A DNA stretch of 64,000 nucleotides from Dyella nitratireducens (GTDB lineage Bacteria > Pseudomonadota > Gammaproteobacteria > Xanthomonadales > Rhodanobacteraceae). The position numbers were made by a program, and so were the translations under genes. The notes under the pieces were generated by a model that was not told the DNA's origin, made no database searches, and saw only the letters and a program-made list of their open reading frames with translations. The stretch is from contig NZ_BMJA01000001.1 of the NCBI RefSeq assembly GCF_014642835.1, forward strand, positions 2,390,943-2,454,942, given 5' to 3'. Positions within the stretch are counted from its first letter, which is position 1. The number at the start of each line of letters is the position of its first letter. Of this stretch, positions 1 through 8,221 are shown piece by piece.

Positions 1-819
1 CAGTTCGGCCAGCAGTTCCGGATAGCTGGGAATGTTGGCATCCCATTCGAGCAAAGTGGACACCGCGCCGTTGCTGGACGCATCGGCACCGCAGCGCTGT
101 TGTGCCAACACATAGAGTTGCCAGACACGCGCGGGTACCGGTTGGTCATGCGTATCGATCAGCAGATCGCCGGTATCGCTGGGTCCGGCAAGATGGATCT
201 GCACGATGTGCTCGGGCGGCAACTGCCGAATATAGTGTTCGGGGTCGAAGCCATGGTTGTGGCTGGACACGTAGACGTTGTTGACGTCGAGCAACAGGCC
301 GCAACCGGTTTCCCGTGCGAGGCGCGCGAGGAAATCGCATTCGGCCATGGGTGAGCAGGCGAATTGCAGATAGCTGCTCGGGTTTTCCAATACCAAGGGC
401 CGCTGCAGCAGTTCCTGCACGGCTTCCACCCGCTGCCGTACGTGCTGGTAAGTGGGTTCGTCCAGGGGCAGCGGCAACAGATCGTGCGCGTTGATGCCTG
501 CCACGCCCGTCCAGCACAAGTGGTCGGAGATCCAGACGGGCTCGATGTCCTCAGCAAGTTGCTTGAGCTTGGCCAGGTACGTGCGGTCCAACGGATCAGC
601 ACTGCCGATCGACATGGAAACACCATGCATCACGACAGGAACCTGTGCACGAATGCGGTCCAATGCATGGCGCGCGTAACCGTGATGACCGATGAAGTTC
701 TCGCTGATGATTTCGAACCAGTCGACGCCGGGACCGTGGCGCAGGATGTGATCGAGATGCGCATTTCTCAGGCCAACGCCGAATCCGAGATTGGGCAGGC
801 CGAGCCGGGGAGCGGTCAT
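1..819 (-). CDS. DUF692/MNIO-family (MbnB/TglH-like) multinuclear iron oxidative enzyme, C-terminus cut by window edge
   Basis: The first 273 codons are visible, starting at the ATG at 819; GAAGG lies just upstream. The family folds as a TIM barrel and holds two or three iron atoms; characterised members (MbnB, TglH) oxidise cysteines of ribosomal peptides. Polar motifs fitting the metal site are present: E40 in SEN, H65 in MHG, D99-H100 in SDH, E145-N146 in LENP, D178-N181 in LDVNN, H187/H189, H209 in QIHLAG and D222/H224. It lies 74 bases downstream of a ferritin-like protein with a cysteine-rich tail on the same strand, so the two probably form an operon and that tail is a candidate substrate (inference). 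A partner protein or further genes may lie beyond the window edge. Confidence 0.85.
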
Positions 820-893
820 GATGTACCTTCGATGCGGGAAGGATGGTTGGATCTCGCCCTCGATGACGAGAGCGAGATCCACGTTCCTTGTTC

Positions 894-2948
894 TCAAGTA
901 GAAGGAGGCAAGGCGATGCGCAGGTCGGTCGCCTTGGGCGGCGTGCCGACCGGTTTGCCGCGCTGGCTCATCACTTTCTGATAAGCCTCCCAGGCCTTCT
1001 GGTACACGGAGTCACCCAAGGCAAACGTCATCGTGCCGATTTGCTTGGACTGATGACGCGGACCGACGAAGTCGTACAGCACCATCGTGCCGCCTTCGGG
1101 ATACAGCTGCGAGGCGGAGATGGGAACCGCACAGCCACCAAACGTGGCGCACTTGTTGTCACTGGGTGAACTGTAATTGCCCGTGGATGGTGGCGGTCCG
1201 CCGCACAGATTGCCTTCCGCGACGTCGTTGTGGCTCTTGCGTCCGCGCAGCATGTAGGGTGCATGGCCTTCCGGCACGCTGGCCGTCATGCCACAACCGC
1301 CGCTGTGACCGCATGATCCGCCGCCGCTGTCGAGTTGCGCGAAGCCGCAACCGCCTTGTGCTTTGCAAGTGTTGGAACCGCGGCAGGTGTGATAGACCTC
1401 GATGGCGGCGCAACTGCCGTCGCTGCCTTCCCACGCCATGCCCTGGCATGCGTGATAGAGCTTGTTGGGATTGACGTCACCGATGCCCAGCGCGAGGTTG
1501 GGTGCTCTCCCGAACACCGCCCAGCAAAGCGACACGCGGTCGCCGGAACCAGCCATCGACGGATAAGGGAACGTGGTGCTGGCATTTTGCCAATAGTCGT
1601 TGAGCACCGTCGTGACACCTTTGATGGCACCCACGGCCACCTTGCTCAATACGGCATGTTCGGCCGGGCCTTGTGCTTTCAGCCGGTTCAGCGCGTCGGC
1701 AATGTCCTGCGGTGGTGGAATGGGAGACGTTGCGGGTGCACTGTATTCGTTGGTAGTCAGCATCGCCGCGGTCCAATGATTCTTTCGGTCGGCGTGCCAC
1801 TTCTCCCAGGTCATGATCTTGTCCAGCTTGCCGTGCAGCGACTCGAATCGCTCGAAGTGAGTCTCGGGCGCGTAGCGTGCGCGAGCTTCGGCATCGGCCG
1901 AAGGGGCTGGCCCACCGTTGGCGTTGTAGGATAGGTAATCCACCTCCAGCGCGGACCTGTCTTCGCGATATTTCTCCTTCACGTCGGTCAGCGGTGCGGG
2001 GGAGAACCGGTAACGCAGCAGCGATTCACCGATGGAGATCAGGCTGCCTTCGCCCTGGTCGGTAATCGCCGACATCATGGTGATGGCCTTGTCGAAGGCG
2101 GCCCTGGGGTTGGCCAGGTCCTGCGCATTGAGCTTGGTTTCGAAGCCGGGGAATTCGCGCCTGGGGTGTCCTTTTTCCGTGACGTTGAAGAGATCCTGCT
2201 GCACGCAATCGGCCGTGAACAATTTCTCCCACAGCGTTTGGCCGTCCTCGTAACGCAGACGCAGGTATTTGGCGTAGCACTCGTACATATCACCGATGGA
2301 ACCGAACATCGGCAGCGGCTTGCCCGGGTCCCAGTCCGGGAACGGCACCTGCGGAAAATAGTTGTGCTTCGGATTGAGCACCATGCCTTCGCGAGCATCT
2401 TTCGTGGATTGCTCGATGGCGCAGAAGAGATCGAGGGTGTTTTTGTCGAGCGAACCGAGCGCGACCTTGGTGTCGTGATAGCGCTTGGTGTCCGTGAGGT
2501 CCACGATGTAAGGGATGGTTGTTTTCTCCGGACCGTAGCAATGCCAGCCATGATCCTTCGTCTGCAAGGCGGGGCTGGTGAACGTCGGTGCCAGGCCGAT
2601 GGCGGTGCTGATATTGGCGGCCATCTCCAGATGCAGCATTTCCTGGATGAAGACGCTGAAGATCAGATTGAAGGTCTTGCGCTCCTCGGTGTCCGGATTG
2701 GCGGTGGGCGCCATGCCCGGCCAACAGCGTCCCTTGTAGTAGTCGATGTTCTTGGCGTTGATTTCGTGCGTGCCGTAGATGGAATACATCGCTGTCATGT
2801 AAAGCGGTATCGTGAACAGCTCGACGTCGATGGCGGCTTGTGCGATGCCCCATACCGCGGCCTTGTCCGTTTCGAAATACTTGAGGCTTCGCTCGACGCA
2901 AATGCCGAGCTCACTTTCCAATCGCGTTGCCGTTGCCGTGTCATTCAT
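894..2948 (-). CDS. Ferritin-like (VioB/RebD-type iminophenyl-pyruvate synthase-like) protein with cysteine-rich C-terminal domain
   Basis: 684 residues, with AAGGAG upstream of the ATG. The N-terminal half resembles the ferritin-like fold of the iminophenyl-pyruvate dimer synthase family: E43 in VELFTIPLY and E103/H106/E108 in QEMLHLEMA are candidate diiron ligands. The C-terminal part carries ten cysteines between residues 501 and 606, including [16 protein letters not shown] at 521-536 and [12 protein letters not shown] at 542-553. Similar Cys/Gly spacing is, from memory, typical of proteins encoded beside DUF692 enzymes. No signal peptide is evident. The adjacent DUF692 gene suggests that the Cys-rich tail is either an oxidatively modified metal-binding segment or a site for a metal cofactor. 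Substrate and reaction are unknown. Confidence 0.75.
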
Positions 2949-3740: not shown

Positions 3741-4529
3741 TTACGCGAGCCTTTGGGTGACAAGGTCCACGACGGCCTGGGTATTTTCTCGATGAGGAAC
3801 GTGGCCGCAGGCTTCCATCACCTTCAATGTCATGCGCCCTGCCGTGAAACGATCGATGCGCTCTGGCTGGCGAAGCGAGCTGTACTCGTCTTGGTCGCCG
3901 TAGATCGCCAGGATGGGACAGCGAATGTGGCGCAGTTCGGTATCAAGGTTCCAGTCTGTGAAGTCGGAGGCGAGCCAGGTGTCCATCCAGGCGCTGAGCA
4001 CCCAGGCTGCCTTGTCGCCATGGTATTTCTTCAAGCGTTCCAGCTGGCCCGGTTGCTGGAAGAGTCGTTTCGCCTGGCGAATACCATCGAGCGTATGAGG
4101 CTCGACGAACACCTGGGCCGATTCCACGATCAAGCCATCGCAAAAGTCTGCGTCACTTGCCGCGCAGACGATGGCCATGCCGCCACCGACGCTGTGACCG
4201 AAGGCGATGAAATGTTTTATCTGCAGTTGCTCGCGTACGGCGCGAAAGCTGGCACGTGCCTCATCGTGCACGAAGCGGTTGGTCAAACTCCCCGGGTGCG
4301 GATCGGATCGGCCAAAGCCAAGACGGTCATAGGCCACCACATCCCTTCCGGTCGCAAGTGCGAGACGCTCTGGGACATCGCGCCATAGCGCTACGCATCC
4401 GAGCGAGTCATGAAAGAGCACAATGGATGCATGGTCGTGTGATCGACTTGTCGCCGGTGACCAGCGCCTGGCGTAGAGCCGACCGAGTTCGGTGTTGATC
4501 CAACTATCTTGAGTCAAAGTGGAAAGCAT
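3741..4529 (-). CDS. Alpha/beta hydrolase
   Basis: 262 residues, the usual length for a single-domain alpha/beta hydrolase. The nucleophile elbow is GHSVGG (Ser near residue 113), the acid is probably the aspartate in the GDQDE segment (near 222), and the histidine lies in ACGHVPH close to the C-terminus. An oxyanion-type segment VLFHDS is near residue 38. No signal peptide is seen, so it is probably cytoplasmic. Its substrate cannot be told from sequence. It ends about 10 bases before azlD but that gene is upstream of it on the same strand, so the three minus-strand genes may be cotranscribed. Confidence 0.85.
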   Translation of the reverse strand: MLSTLTQDSWINTELGRLYARRWSPATSRSHDHASIVLFHDSLGCVALWRDVPERLALATGRDVVAYDRLGFGRSDPHPGSLTNRFVHDEARASFRAVREQLQIKHFIAFGHSVGGGMAIVCAASDADFCDGLIVESAQVFVEPHTLDGIRQAKRLFQQPGQLERLKKYHGDKAAWVLSAWMDTWLASDFTDWNLDTELRHIRCPILAIYGDQDEYSSLRQPERIDRFTAGRMTLKVMEACGHVPHRENTQAVVDLVTQRLA

Positions 4530-4538
4530 GCGGATACA

Positions 4539-4838
4539 TCAGGGAAGAAGATGGCGAAGCACGCCTGCCGCAACGACACCGATGATGACCGTGGCAAGCA
4601 TGGGCAGGCGTATCGCGGCGACTAGCGTGATGAGCAGCGCGAGGATATCGGCCAGTGAGTTGGAAACGAAACGTGGTGCAATCACGGCGATGAGCACGCA
4701 CCCCGGTGCTGCTTCCAGCACGGTGATGGCGCGTGTGCCCAGTGTGCGGTGACGCAGCACGAGATAGCCGGCGATCCGTGTCAGATACGTCATGGATGCC
4801 ATCAGCACGATGGCCAGAACGGTTGCAGGATGGATCAT
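4539..4838 (-). CDS. azlD: AzlD-family branched-chain amino acid exporter, small subunit
   Basis: 99 residues and strongly hydrophobic, with three or four membrane segments. The MTYLTRIAGY segment near residue 16 and the APGCVLIAVIAPR segment near residue 45 match AzlD proteins. The start overlaps the azlC stop by four bases (ATGA), indicating translational coupling. AzlCD proteins form a two-component inner-membrane exporter for branched-chain amino acids or their analogues. A longer frame open to 5348 is only read-through across azlC. Confidence 0.85.
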   Translation of the reverse strand: MIHPATVLAIVLMASMTYLTRIAGYLVLRHRTLGTRAITVLEAAPGCVLIAVIAPRFVSNSLADILALLITLVAAIRLPMLATVIIGVVAAGVLRHLLP

Positions 4839-5566
4839 GGCTGGTCTGCCCAAACGTACGCGGCAAGCAGCCCCGATGCTGCGCCGGCCGCCACGTACCA
4901 TGCTCCAGGTATCCATACATGCGTTGCTGCGGCCATGATCAAGCTCACCAGCCATGGGCGTGCAGCGCGTGCACTTTTCCACATGCCGCGCAGCAAGACG
5001 AGAAACACCGCGGGAAAAGCCATATCGAAACCGTAGGCATCGATATTTCCGATCATCGGGCCGACGATCGCGCCGATGGTGGTGAACGTTATCCAGGTCA
5101 GGTAAAGCCCGGCCGACAGTCCCAGGTAGTAGCGCAAGCTGAAAGATGGCGATGTGCTCGCGCGCTGCCGAGCATCGGCCAGGCCCATGGCCCAACTTTC
5201 GTCGCACATGAAAAACAGTGCAGGCAATGCTTTGCGCAGCGGCAGGTGTCGAATGAAACGCGCCAGCGTTGCACCCATCAGAAGGTGGCGGCTGTTGACG
5301 AGAAATGCGATCGCGACGATCAGCCCGATATGCGGCGGTGAGGTCCACAACCTGATGGCCGCAAACTCCGAACCACCGCCGAAATTGAGTCCCGTCATCA
5401 GCGGCACCTCGATGGGGCTGAGCCCTTTCTGGGCAGCTTGCGCGCCAAGCACGAGTGCAAAAGGGACAAAGCCGAGCATGACCGGCAGTGCAGCGACGAA
5501 GCCGCGCCGAGCTTCGTGGTGGTCGTGCGCGGGAGCGGCAAGCGTTGGGGACTGAAAGGCGCGCAT
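4835..5566 (-). CDS. azlC: AzlC-family branched-chain amino acid exporter, large subunit
   Basis: 243 residues from the ATG at 5566, or 273 from an ATG at 5656 that has a better ribosome site (TTGGAG). The shorter start is preferred because it leaves promoter space before the divergent regulator and fits the family N-terminus. Typical AzlC segments are ALPVMLGFVPFALVLGAQA, the AIAFLVNSRHLLMGATL stretch, and MCDESWAM. Several transmembrane helices are evident. It pairs with azlD. The divergent Lrp/AsnC regulator is the expected controller, as in many azlCD loci. Confidence 0.88.
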   Translation of the reverse strand: MRAFQSPTLAAPAHDHHEARRGFVAALPVMLGFVPFALVLGAQAAQKGLSPIEVPLMTGLNFGGGSEFAAIRLWTSPPHIGLIVAIAFLVNSRHLLMGATLARFIRHLPLRKALPALFFMCDESWAMGLADARQRASTSPSFSLRYYLGLSAGLYLTWITFTTIGAIVGPMIGNIDAYGFDMAFPAVFLVLLRGMWKSARAARPWLVSLIMAAATHVWIPGAWYVAAGAASGLLAAYVWADQP

Positions 5567-5688
5567 ATCGAATCTCAGTTGGGAGGTGAAAGCATAGGTT
5601 TCCCGTCGTGGGATCGGGTTGCGTTTATGCTCGAGATGGGAGGATATTTGGTACATAAATCTCCAATTTATGTAAATCGAGCAATCCC

Positions 5689-6156
5689 ATGCCAATCAAA
5701 CTGGACAAGATCGATCGCCGCATCCTGGCGGTGCTGCAGCAGGACGGACGCATTCAGAACGTGGAGCTGGCCAGCCGCGTCGGGCTTTCGCCATCGCCTT
5801 GCCTGAGGCGTGTTCGATTGCTGGAAGAAGAAGGCGTGATCGAGCAATACGTAGCGCTGCTCAACCCGGCCAAGATAGGTGCCGGTTTTACGGTCTTTGC
5901 ACGTGTATGGCTGACGGGACAGGACGAAGACACCGTCAATCATTTCATCGATGCAATCAAAGAGCTGCCGCAAGTCATGGAATGCCAATTGATGGCGGGC
6001 GATTGCGATTTTCTTCTGCGCATCGCCGTCGCCGATCTTGATGCTTACCGTCGATTCCAGATCGAACATTTGAATCGCATCAAAGGGATTCAGAGCGTCA
6101 AGACGGAAATCCCCATGCAGAAGATCAAGCTGACGTCGCAGTTACCTTTGGGCTAA
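5689..6156 (+). CDS. Lrp/AsnC-family transcriptional regulator
   Basis: 155 residues. The N-terminal winged helix-turn-helix is DKIDRRILAVLQQDGR followed by NVELASRVGLSPSPCLRRVRLLEEEGVI. The C-terminal ligand-binding RAM domain includes PQVMECQLMAGDCDFLLRIAV. It is transcribed away from azlCD, with only about 120 bases between the likely starts, so it probably senses an amino acid and controls that exporter. Family membership is clear; the effector is inference. Confidence 0.92.
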   Translation: MPIKLDKIDRRILAVLQQDGRIQNVELASRVGLSPSPCLRRVRLLEEEGVIEQYVALLNPAKIGAGFTVFARVWLTGQDEDTVNHFIDAIKELPQVMECQLMAGDCDFLLRIAVADLDAYRRFQIEHLNRIKGIQSVKTEIPMQKIKLTSQLPLG

Positions 6157-6619: not shown

Positions 6620-8221
6620 GTGAGCGATGGTATGACATCCAGATTTTGGTGGCAGGTTATTTTCACTATTTTTGTTTTTTTTCGACTCGCCGTTGTGCAT
6701 GCGGCGGATACGACAAGTGTTTACGTTCACTACAGGTCCCCAAATCTCGTCTATATTGATGTAAAAGCGCCAGCTGGCACTGAAGTAATAAAGTTCTCGC
6801 CTGTAAATGGCGTGACACGTGATGCTATTTGGAAAGTGACTAGTGGCGGCATGTTAGATGGAGACACATTGAATCTCCAGGGTGGTTCGTCTGCGGTCCT
6901 TGTGATGGACGTTGCTCGACGGCCCCAAGTTCAGGACAGACATTATGCGCCGTTCTTTAACGCCTCAAATGATGGTGCGATTGTTTTAAATAGCCTTTTC
7001 ACAACCTTGTCGAAAACCAACGTCGCGTATGAAAAGTTGGCATCCACGAGTTGCAGCTCATTGGATATTCGACCGAATTGGGCAGTTTCAGCTGATGGGT
7101 CAGGTTACGCAGTTCTTGGCAATTTAAAGTGTTTGAAAATTCGCGCCGGAGTAATCGTCTATGATCCAACGGCTTCGCATGAATTAATTAAGAAAATACA
7201 TTCCTCGGCAGACCAGATAGTCAGCTACTACAACACAATGCTGAGAACGCAAAAACGTATTAACGTCCTTGCATACGTAACGAATGACAGTGGCGAATAT
7301 TTTCATGGTGATGATTTGGGTGATGGATTAGTTGTTGGATTCTCAAAGAGCCTAAGCCTCGACACATGGAATACTTATAGTGAATTTGGCCTTACTCAAT
7401 TTATCGCCCACGAAATCTTTCATCAATGGAATGCAGAAGTTTCCTACAGGGAAAACAGTGGAGTTCTCTTGAACGAGGGCGGCGCGGAGGATGCAGCTTA
7501 TTTTTACAGCGCTTCTCATGGCCTCCCGGGAACTCCGGCTCTAGCAGAATTCATACTGGGTAGGTCCAATCAATGCATTCTTGAGGTCGGCATCAATATG
7601 ACGATCAGAGGGATATTGGGAAGCGGTAATTTGAATCGAGTTCCTTACGACTGTGGTGCAGTTTATACGCTGGCTCGAATGCCATCTAATGGAGCGCTAA
7701 TCAGTACTGAATATTTCGATGCCTGGAGAGCCGTACTCCGGCTGGCGAATACATCCAAATCATTGGTTTCTGTGAACGAATTTGGCTTAGGTGCCGATAC
7801 CGATGAATTGCTTTCGACGTACAACGTGGCCGGTGCTATCGCACAGCGTTTTGAGTTAAACAACCTCCACTTTAGCGTGACGAAAGATGCCTCATCTGAC
7901 GAAAACCACAGCTTATTTCTCGACGTTGCAAAATTCTTAATGAACATGGATTGCAATGGTAACGTGGGGTTCTGGGATGGACCTAATAGCTTAACGATAG
8001 ACCCACAGGTCAAGACGTGTAAGGCGCTATCACATTTGACTTCTATATCGAAGATCGCGGGTTACGGCATGAACGACAATGCTGTCCACCTTGTTGCGGA
8101 TATGAATCATCTCTGCGAACGAGGTGAGCAAGTGCGCATTACAGGAAATGACGGAAAGGAAGCGAATCTACCGTGTCGTGCCGAAATTCATTTATTTGAG
8201 GGCTTCTTGAAATCGGAATAG
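6620..8221 (+). CDS. Secreted gluzincin-type zinc metalloprotease of unknown target
   Basis: 533 residues from a GTG; an ATG four codons in (6632) is equally possible. An N-terminal hydrophobic segment ending near VVHAAD is a likely signal peptide. The zinc motif HEIFH is at 264-268, followed by a tryptophan and, 17 residues later, glutamate E286 in LNEGGAE. This matches the HExxH...E arrangement of M1/M61-like enzymes. Base composition is clearly more AT-rich than its neighbours, and it is flanked by a truncated gene on one side and IS debris on the other, so it was probably acquired. Target unknown. Confidence 0.7.
   Translation: MSDGMTSRFWWQVIFTIFVFFRLAVVHAADTTSVYVHYRSPNLVYIDVKAPAGTEVIKFSPVNGVTRDAIWKVTSGGMLDGDTLNLQGGSSAVLVMDVARRPQVQDRHYAPFFNASNDGAIVLNSLFTTLSKTNVAYEKLASTSCSSLDIRPNWAVSADGSGYAVLGNLKCLKIRAGVIVYDPTASHELIKKIHSSADQIVSYYNTMLRTQKRINVLAYVTNDSGEYFHGDDLGDGLVVGFSKSLSLDTWNTYSEFGLTQFIAHEIFHQWNAEVSYRENSGVLLNEGGAEDAAYFYSASHGLPGTPALAEFILGRSNQCILEVGINMTIRGILGSGNLNRVPYDCGAVYTLARMPSNGALISTEYFDAWRAVLRLANTSKSLVSVNEFGLGADTDELLSTYNVAGAIAQRFELNNLHFSVTKDASSDENHSLFLDVAKFLMNMDCNGNVGFWDGPNSLTIDPQVKTCKALSHLTSISKIAGYGMNDNAVHLVADMNHLCERGEQVRITGNDGKEANLPCRAEIHLFEGFLKSE

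Follow-up and report, generated by a model that had tools for sequence, protein, structure and literature searches.

A conserved gene cassette joins an MNIO and a DUF2063 partner to a ferritin-like protein with a cysteine-rich loop, its candidate substrate

Most of what is known about MNIO enzymes concerns the modification of small copper-binding peptides, many of which are secreted. In the stretch of Dyella nitratireducens DNA analysed here (64,000 nucleotides, G000:C1:2390943-2454942; hereafter the window), a DUF692 gene of this family lies directly 3′ of a gene for a 684-residue ferritin-like protein with ten cysteines in its tail. This arrangement had been read in a first-pass annotation, and the open reading frames and the matches to PF12902 and PF05114 agree with it. 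The locus raises the question whether the tail of such a large protein is the substrate of the neighbouring enzyme. We refer to the ferritin-like protein as A, to the MNIO as B and to a DUF2063 partner as C (Table 1).

The three genes and their surroundings

Table 1. Location of the cassette genes and of the parts of A (window positions unless a locus is named)
Feature	Position	Strand	Basis
Ferritin-like protein A (684 aa) with a Cys-rich internal loop; candidate MNIO substrate	894..2948	(-)	ORF, Pfam, conservation, gene context
PF12902 ferritin-like domain of A, residues 37-303	2040..2840	(-)	Pfam, E 2.3e-24
Cys-rich loop of A, residues 499-606, proposed modification site	1131..1454	(-)	alignment, AlphaFold, profile comparison
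C-terminal folded part of A, residues 616-684, PPST end	897..1103	(-)	alignment, AlphaFold
MNIO gene B (DUF692/PF05114, BufB type), truncated by the window edge	1..819; whole gene L003:8812-9762	(-)	Pfam, NCBIfam
DUF2063 partner gene C, beyond base 1	L003:7992-8828	(-)	PF09836

In the Pfam search A matched PF12902 alone (87 bits, cut-off 22.3), the NCBIfam search gave no match, and A showed no match to the known precursor families BufA2 NF050166, DUF2282 and the EGKCG repeat. Homologues that are not cut by a contig edge are 625-778 residues long, and among named relatives the protein of Dyella acidisoli is closest to the focal one (89%). Residues E43, E103, H106, E179 and E300, kept in 84-85 of 85 aligned proteins, are candidate dimetal ligands and may bind metal in A. 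The AlphaFold model had a mean pLDDT of 81.6 and a pTM of 0.86, with residues 20-480 mostly confident. Its sole PDB fold match with E <0.001, and also the sole PDB profile match, was 3hl1 (two chains), the ferritin-like PF12902 protein CC_0557 of Caulobacter vibrioides. Unlike A, the 3hl1 chain has only 289-317 residues, and by profile it aligns with the ferritin-like part of A without the tail. By a crude hydrophobicity measure, applied to approximate start codons, 4 of 84 A homologues reached the signal-peptide threshold, compared with 32 of 38 BufA2 precursors. A and its homologues seem to lack an N-terminal signal peptide and to be non-secreted.

A second PF12902 protein is encoded in the same genome (L111, G000:C4:28000-42000, about 7205-7879, minus strand). 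A C-terminal cysteine motif, which we take to be CDGSH-like, replaces the MNIO-linked tail in this protein. The PF12902 protein of genome G419 has the same arrangement with a CDGSH-like motif at its end.

The product of gene B matched PF05114 with 344 bits (cut-off 25, E 6.4e-103) and the NCBIfam model NF050167 MNIO_BufB with 348 bits (cut-off 310). Its start is likely the ATG at window position 819 rather than the TTG at 897, because the open frame in the 89%-identical locus L019 begins just before that ATG. The gene ends about 130 bases past base 1 of the window in the whole genome. It had been suggested that a partner protein might be found beyond this edge, and a DUF2063 gene is indeed present there, overlapping the 3′ end of B by 17 bases; as it is located outside the window, the first-pass annotation could not include it. 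C matched PF09836 with 64 bits (cut-off 27.2, E 1.6e-17) and is of the DUF2063 type, PME-type 1. To the NCBIfam model HvfC it scored 41 bits, far under the cut-off of 142. With the DUF2063 gene beyond base 1, the gene order is that of a bufferin operon.

The Dyella genome also contains an ordinary bufferin operon (L004:5813-7850, plus strand) with a BufA2 gene (NF050166 over cut-off), an MNIO gene and a DUF2063 gene. The partner encoded in this operon had no NCBIfam match at all. An MFS transporter gene (PF07690) and genes that we read as narG, narH and narJ lie further downstream of the cassette, and the ORFs at window 4504-6156 presumably encode an AzlC/AzlD-type pair beside an Lrp-type regulator.

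Linkage of the cassette genes across genomes

Relatives of A were collected from one genome per species, with a seven-protein alignment as query and scan patterns that lay within the ferritin-like domain and not in the tail. Searches with the protein itself had given homologues in 3 of 61 relatives and in 5 of 398 genomes of the order, own genome included. The one-per-species scan yielded 158 loci with an A relative, of which the best 80 were kept. MNIO and then DUF2063 genes directly followed A on the same strand in 78 of these 80, and in the other two (L048 and L089) the contig ends just after the ferritin-like gene. The two genes also follow A in L011, L012 and L016-L018 and in the divergent genomes G543 and G530. 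Thus, the predicted co-occurrence in other genomes was found. The pattern-based scan of viral_contigs gave no viral relative of A.

The genera with A loci include Dyella, Xanthomonas, Chromobacterium, Janthinobacterium, Massilia, Undibacterium, Ralstonia and Caulobacter, and further loci were found in Sphingomonas, Vibrio, Saccharothrix, Actinophytocola, Mucilaginibacter, Chitinophaga, an Ignavibacteria MAG and Sulfidibacter. From these genus names we take the carriers to belong to several phyla. Two Pseudoalteromonas plasmids encode full-length A proteins with 35% identity. MNIO genes occur in many genomes (143 of 229 of the class), and since at most five were among the matches listed per genome, their abundance does not explain the 78 adjacencies. 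Chance adjacency of A and the MNIO was ruled out by the 78 of 80 loci.

As controls we used PF12902 proteins without the tail. Among 369 class genomes, eight contained nine PF12902 matches over the cut-off. Three of the nine carry the Cys tail (focal, G543 and G530), and all three are beside MNIO and DUF2063 genes. For the tail-less proteins, on the other hand, no MNIO gene was found in the stretch examined around any of eight (the six other class-genome matches and hits on Gloeothece and Ruegeria plasmids; the sub-threshold G434 match was left out), two of which lie on short contigs (G516, 6.5 kb; G634, 3.9 kb). A different pairing was seen on the Gloeothece and Ruegeria plasmids (L013, L014), where the tail-less gene directly follows a GMC oxidoreductase gene. 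A distant 592-residue relative with 17 cysteines in G039 (L117:4027-7704) is encoded on the opposite strand and is still beside MNIO and DUF2063 genes; Cys-Lys-Gly motifs resembling those of BufA2 are preserved in its tail. In this genome the orientation has changed while the linkage stayed.

The three genes might travel together by descent or transfer without the MNIO acting on A, and the clustering of related species in the 80-locus sample (Janthinobacterium, Mucilaginibacter, Sphingomonas and Caulobacter) is in line with this. However, the linkage persists at 35-45% protein identity in genera that we assign by name to several phyla, it was kept in G039 despite the altered orientation, and tail-less PF12902 proteins do not show it. 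We therefore regard adjacency without function as very improbable.

The cysteine-rich loop and the search for another precursor

The ten tail cysteines of A are at positions 501, 513, 522, 528, 534, 546, 552, 582, 600 and 606 and belong to the motifs HxCQG, HxCxGSNxCxxxGGCGF and [15 protein letters not shown]. Cysteines 501, 522, 528, 534, 600 and 606 are kept in all 85 aligned proteins, Cys513 in 82, Cys546 in 78 and Cys582 in 70, whereas Cys552 is not conserved. Since nine of the ten are kept in 70 to 85 of 85 relatives, the tail is more than a chance accumulation of cysteines. A histidine two residues ahead of a cysteine is likewise conserved (H520 in 85 of 85, H499 in 83 of 85). PPST is the last sequence of every one of the 84 proteins with a complete C-terminus; this ending is missing from the divergent proteins of G543, G530 and G039, and the G530 protein has only six cysteines within its last 200 residues.

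In the AlphaFold model, about 80 of the 106 residues of 501-606 have a pLDDT <50, and the chain folds again from about residue 616 into a hairpin with helices. A loop that is predicted with low confidence and is yet invariant would fit a need of modification or metal for folding, though this is no proof. Its near-absolute invariance is unlike what is expected of a plain metal sponge. We also searched for the tail as a free-standing domain among 398 phylum genomes, with the best first-look candidates being scored; two genomes matched, the open frames concerned being 708 and 676 codons long, and a free-standing domain was rejected.

Next to its conservation, the tail shows some likeness to BufA2. 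When its profile was aligned to a profile of 50 BufA2-type precursors picked by motif, the score was 30.1 over 26 columns, with the aligned core HxCxGxNxCKxQG...GF. This is higher than in all of 200 column shuffles (maximum 23.4), in all of 200 four-column block shuffles (maximum 26.6) and with the reversed tail (15.7). As the match extends over 26 columns and the HHalign probability is only 47%, homology is not proven; judged from the profiles, the likeness is weak but more than composition, and both descent and convergence may account for it.

In flanks of up to 2 kb around 79 cassettes, outside the short gaps within the cassettes, no short ORF matched the BufA2 profile (E 0.01) and none had an EGKCG repeat. 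Six loci contained short ORFs rich in Cys, six in all, which have no visible common motif. A recognisable small precursor was thereby rejected for the scanned flanks of these 79 cassettes. A could be a further tailoring or helper enzyme, the MNIO substrate being an unrecognised small peptide and the tail cysteines binding zinc or an iron-sulphur cluster or forming disulphides. PF12902 includes biosynthetic enzymes such as VioB, which counts in favour of such a role. Enzymes do occur among the large proteins whose genes precede those of MNIOs, as with adjamnio-II and -III (PMC12452194), and in four loci (L022, L052, L075 and L090) the gap of about 190-240 bases between A and the MNIO was outside the ORF scan. 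On the other hand, A occupies the precursor position, its tail resembles BufA2, the MNIO tracks with this tail and not with the ferritin-like domain, and no ORF of the BufA2 or EGKCG type lies near the 79 cassettes. We consider a helper role of A improbable.

We also compared the surroundings of the cassettes, using 75 first neighbours picked by eye from 105 eligible ones, with genes called by a simple script. No Pfam family occurred in more than two of the 75 neighbours (25 of 63 families listed), so the unit seems to consist of three genes. DoxX and sigma-factor genes, which are named for bufferin clusters in PMC12452194, were not recurrent among the families listed for these neighbours. The same applies to copper genes, which counts against a bufferin-like role of the cassette. 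One AcrB-type pump was among the listed neighbours, and the other families may include single metal or stress genes.

MNIO grouping and the possible product of the cassette

A tree was built from 108 MNIOs, of which 60 belong to cassettes and 48 do not; the cassette MNIOs form one side of a branch with bootstrap 99 and SH-aLRT 94. For this tree 26 cassette rows were dropped by eye as redundant, as were the long controls L150, L162 and L166; the alignment of L067 and L086 is poor, and the bootstrap had not converged. In an earlier tree, built without L019 and with L066 misread, two changes were needed for the cassette MNIOs.

The cassette MNIOs also differ in the residue that follows the Asp in the E-R/W-D motif. 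In the focal MNIO these two residues are Asp286 and Ala287, numbered by the long frame. According to PMC13097082, the position after the catalytic Asp is a selectivity site, and a Phe/Asp pattern beside the proposed catalytic base is tied to substrate choice; because our alignment has the same Phe/Asp pattern, we took the Asp of the motif as equivalent to this base. The following residue is Ala in 80 of 84 cassette MNIOs (two of the 86 rows are gapped here), Asp in 24 of 27 MNIOs whose precursors are of the Cys-Lys class and Phe in all 7 that have EGKCG precursors, the precursor classes coming from a simple motif rule over upstream ORFs that leaves some labels doubtful. Ala is not unique to cassettes, as it was also present in 4 of 51 non-cassette MNIOs (50 loci and the genome's own; 30 were top-scoring matches and 20 hand-chosen, rather than drawn at random). 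The Ala position suggests a third MNIO specificity class.

The closest known arrangement is the bufferin 2 operon (bufA2-bufB-bufC; Cys-Lys captophorins). It shares with the cassette the order precursor-MNIO-DUF2063, an MNIO that passes NF050167 and the core that the tail of A resembles. In contrast to bufferin 2, A contains a ferritin-like domain, its Cys loop is internal and capped, and it seems to have no signal peptide. The cassette MNIOs form a separate group and mostly have Ala where Asp usually follows the catalytic Asp in the Cys-Lys enzymes. In the EGKCG captophorins (oxazolin and fontiphorin) an MNIO with a DUF2063 partner likewise acts on Cys-rich precursors (PMC13097082), but A has no EGKCG repeat, and their MNIOs have Phe where the cassette enzymes mostly have Ala. 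Long proteins have been proposed as MNIO substrates before: PMC12452194 describes fused or large precursors such as Buf1-cytochrome c-FGE, MerC-bufferin, Buf_EGKCG-EF-hand, TIGR04222 and the adjamnio families. None of those named in its main text is ferritin-like, and its clusters I-IV comprise 119-386 residues. Adjamnio-1 and -2 have PME-type 2 partners, while the cassette partner is of the DUF2063 type. Since DUF2063-type partners go with signal-peptide-bearing precursors in PMC12452194 and A seems to have no signal peptide, substrate recognition by C must differ.

Linkage, conservation, motif resemblance, MNIO grouping and the lack of another recognisable precursor all point to the Cys tail as the substrate. 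Together with the tail-less controls, this gene context strongly supports the earlier proposal that the MNIO acts on a tail fused to a ferritin-like protein; no result favours in particular the 'peroxide-handling' protein that was suggested alongside. While the Cys loop of A as MNIO substrate is well supported by gene context, we infer the occurrence of the modification, its chemistry, the cysteines that are hit, the metal bound and the physiological role.

We favour as probable a self-contained cassette in which B and C oxidise the Cys loop of A, building a bufferin-like metal site in a non-secreted protein. C would be a DUF2063/RRE-type partner and B an MNIO dedicated to A. Both would bind A, and B with C would then oxidise cysteines in the flexible loop, at about residues 499-606. 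The products would most likely be 5-thiooxazoles, as shown for related MNIO-DUF2063 pairs (PMC13097082). The modification would install the metal site in a folded, presumably dimetal, intracellular protein and not in a secreted peptide. Between a copper buffer and an enzyme cofactor, we lean to a role of the product in metal handling. The invariance of the loop, the lack of recurrent copper genes and the low HvfC score of C count against this bufferin-like explanation, although the partner in the genome's own bufferin operon had no NCBIfam match either.

It is possible, at a clearly lower probability, that A becomes an active enzyme through maturation by B and C. The groups made by the MNIO would then be a built-in catalytic or redox cofactor, comparable to the protein-derived quinone cofactors, and the modified loop would fold onto the dimetal body. 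The near-invariant loop motifs with a His two residues ahead of Cys, the conserved dimetal ligand candidates, the predicted folded parts that hold the loop at both ends and the absence of a recurrent neighbour family are in line with a cofactor. However, no catalytic activity is known for the protein family of A, the loop resembles the BufA2 metallophore core, and the modified loop is beyond what AlphaFold can show. Tentatively, the invariant HxC and GGC cysteines could form a heterocycle-metal site that works with the dimetal centre of A, in a new kind of matured metalloenzyme.

It has been proposed in PMC12452194, without naming the family of A, that proteins may be among the substrates of MNIOs, and the word 'ferritin' is absent from the main text of that paper; the family may be among the more than 1,000 signal-peptide-less genes considered there. 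In the available text of PMC8224329, 'ferritin-like' occurs in a reference title only. In literature pairing MNIO, DUF692, DUF2063 or bufferin with a ferritin-like protein, covered for PMC12452194 without its supplements, we found no description of such a system.

If the cassette MNIO is indeed dedicated to one folded, non-secreted protein of ~70-85 kDa, this chemistry would extend to the maturation of ordinary proteins. Because the cassette departs from the correlation of DUF2063 partners with signal peptides in PMC12452194, it is a clean system for studying partner-substrate recognition. If the loop does serve as a cofactor, bacteria of several phyla would contain a new kind of matured metalloenzyme.
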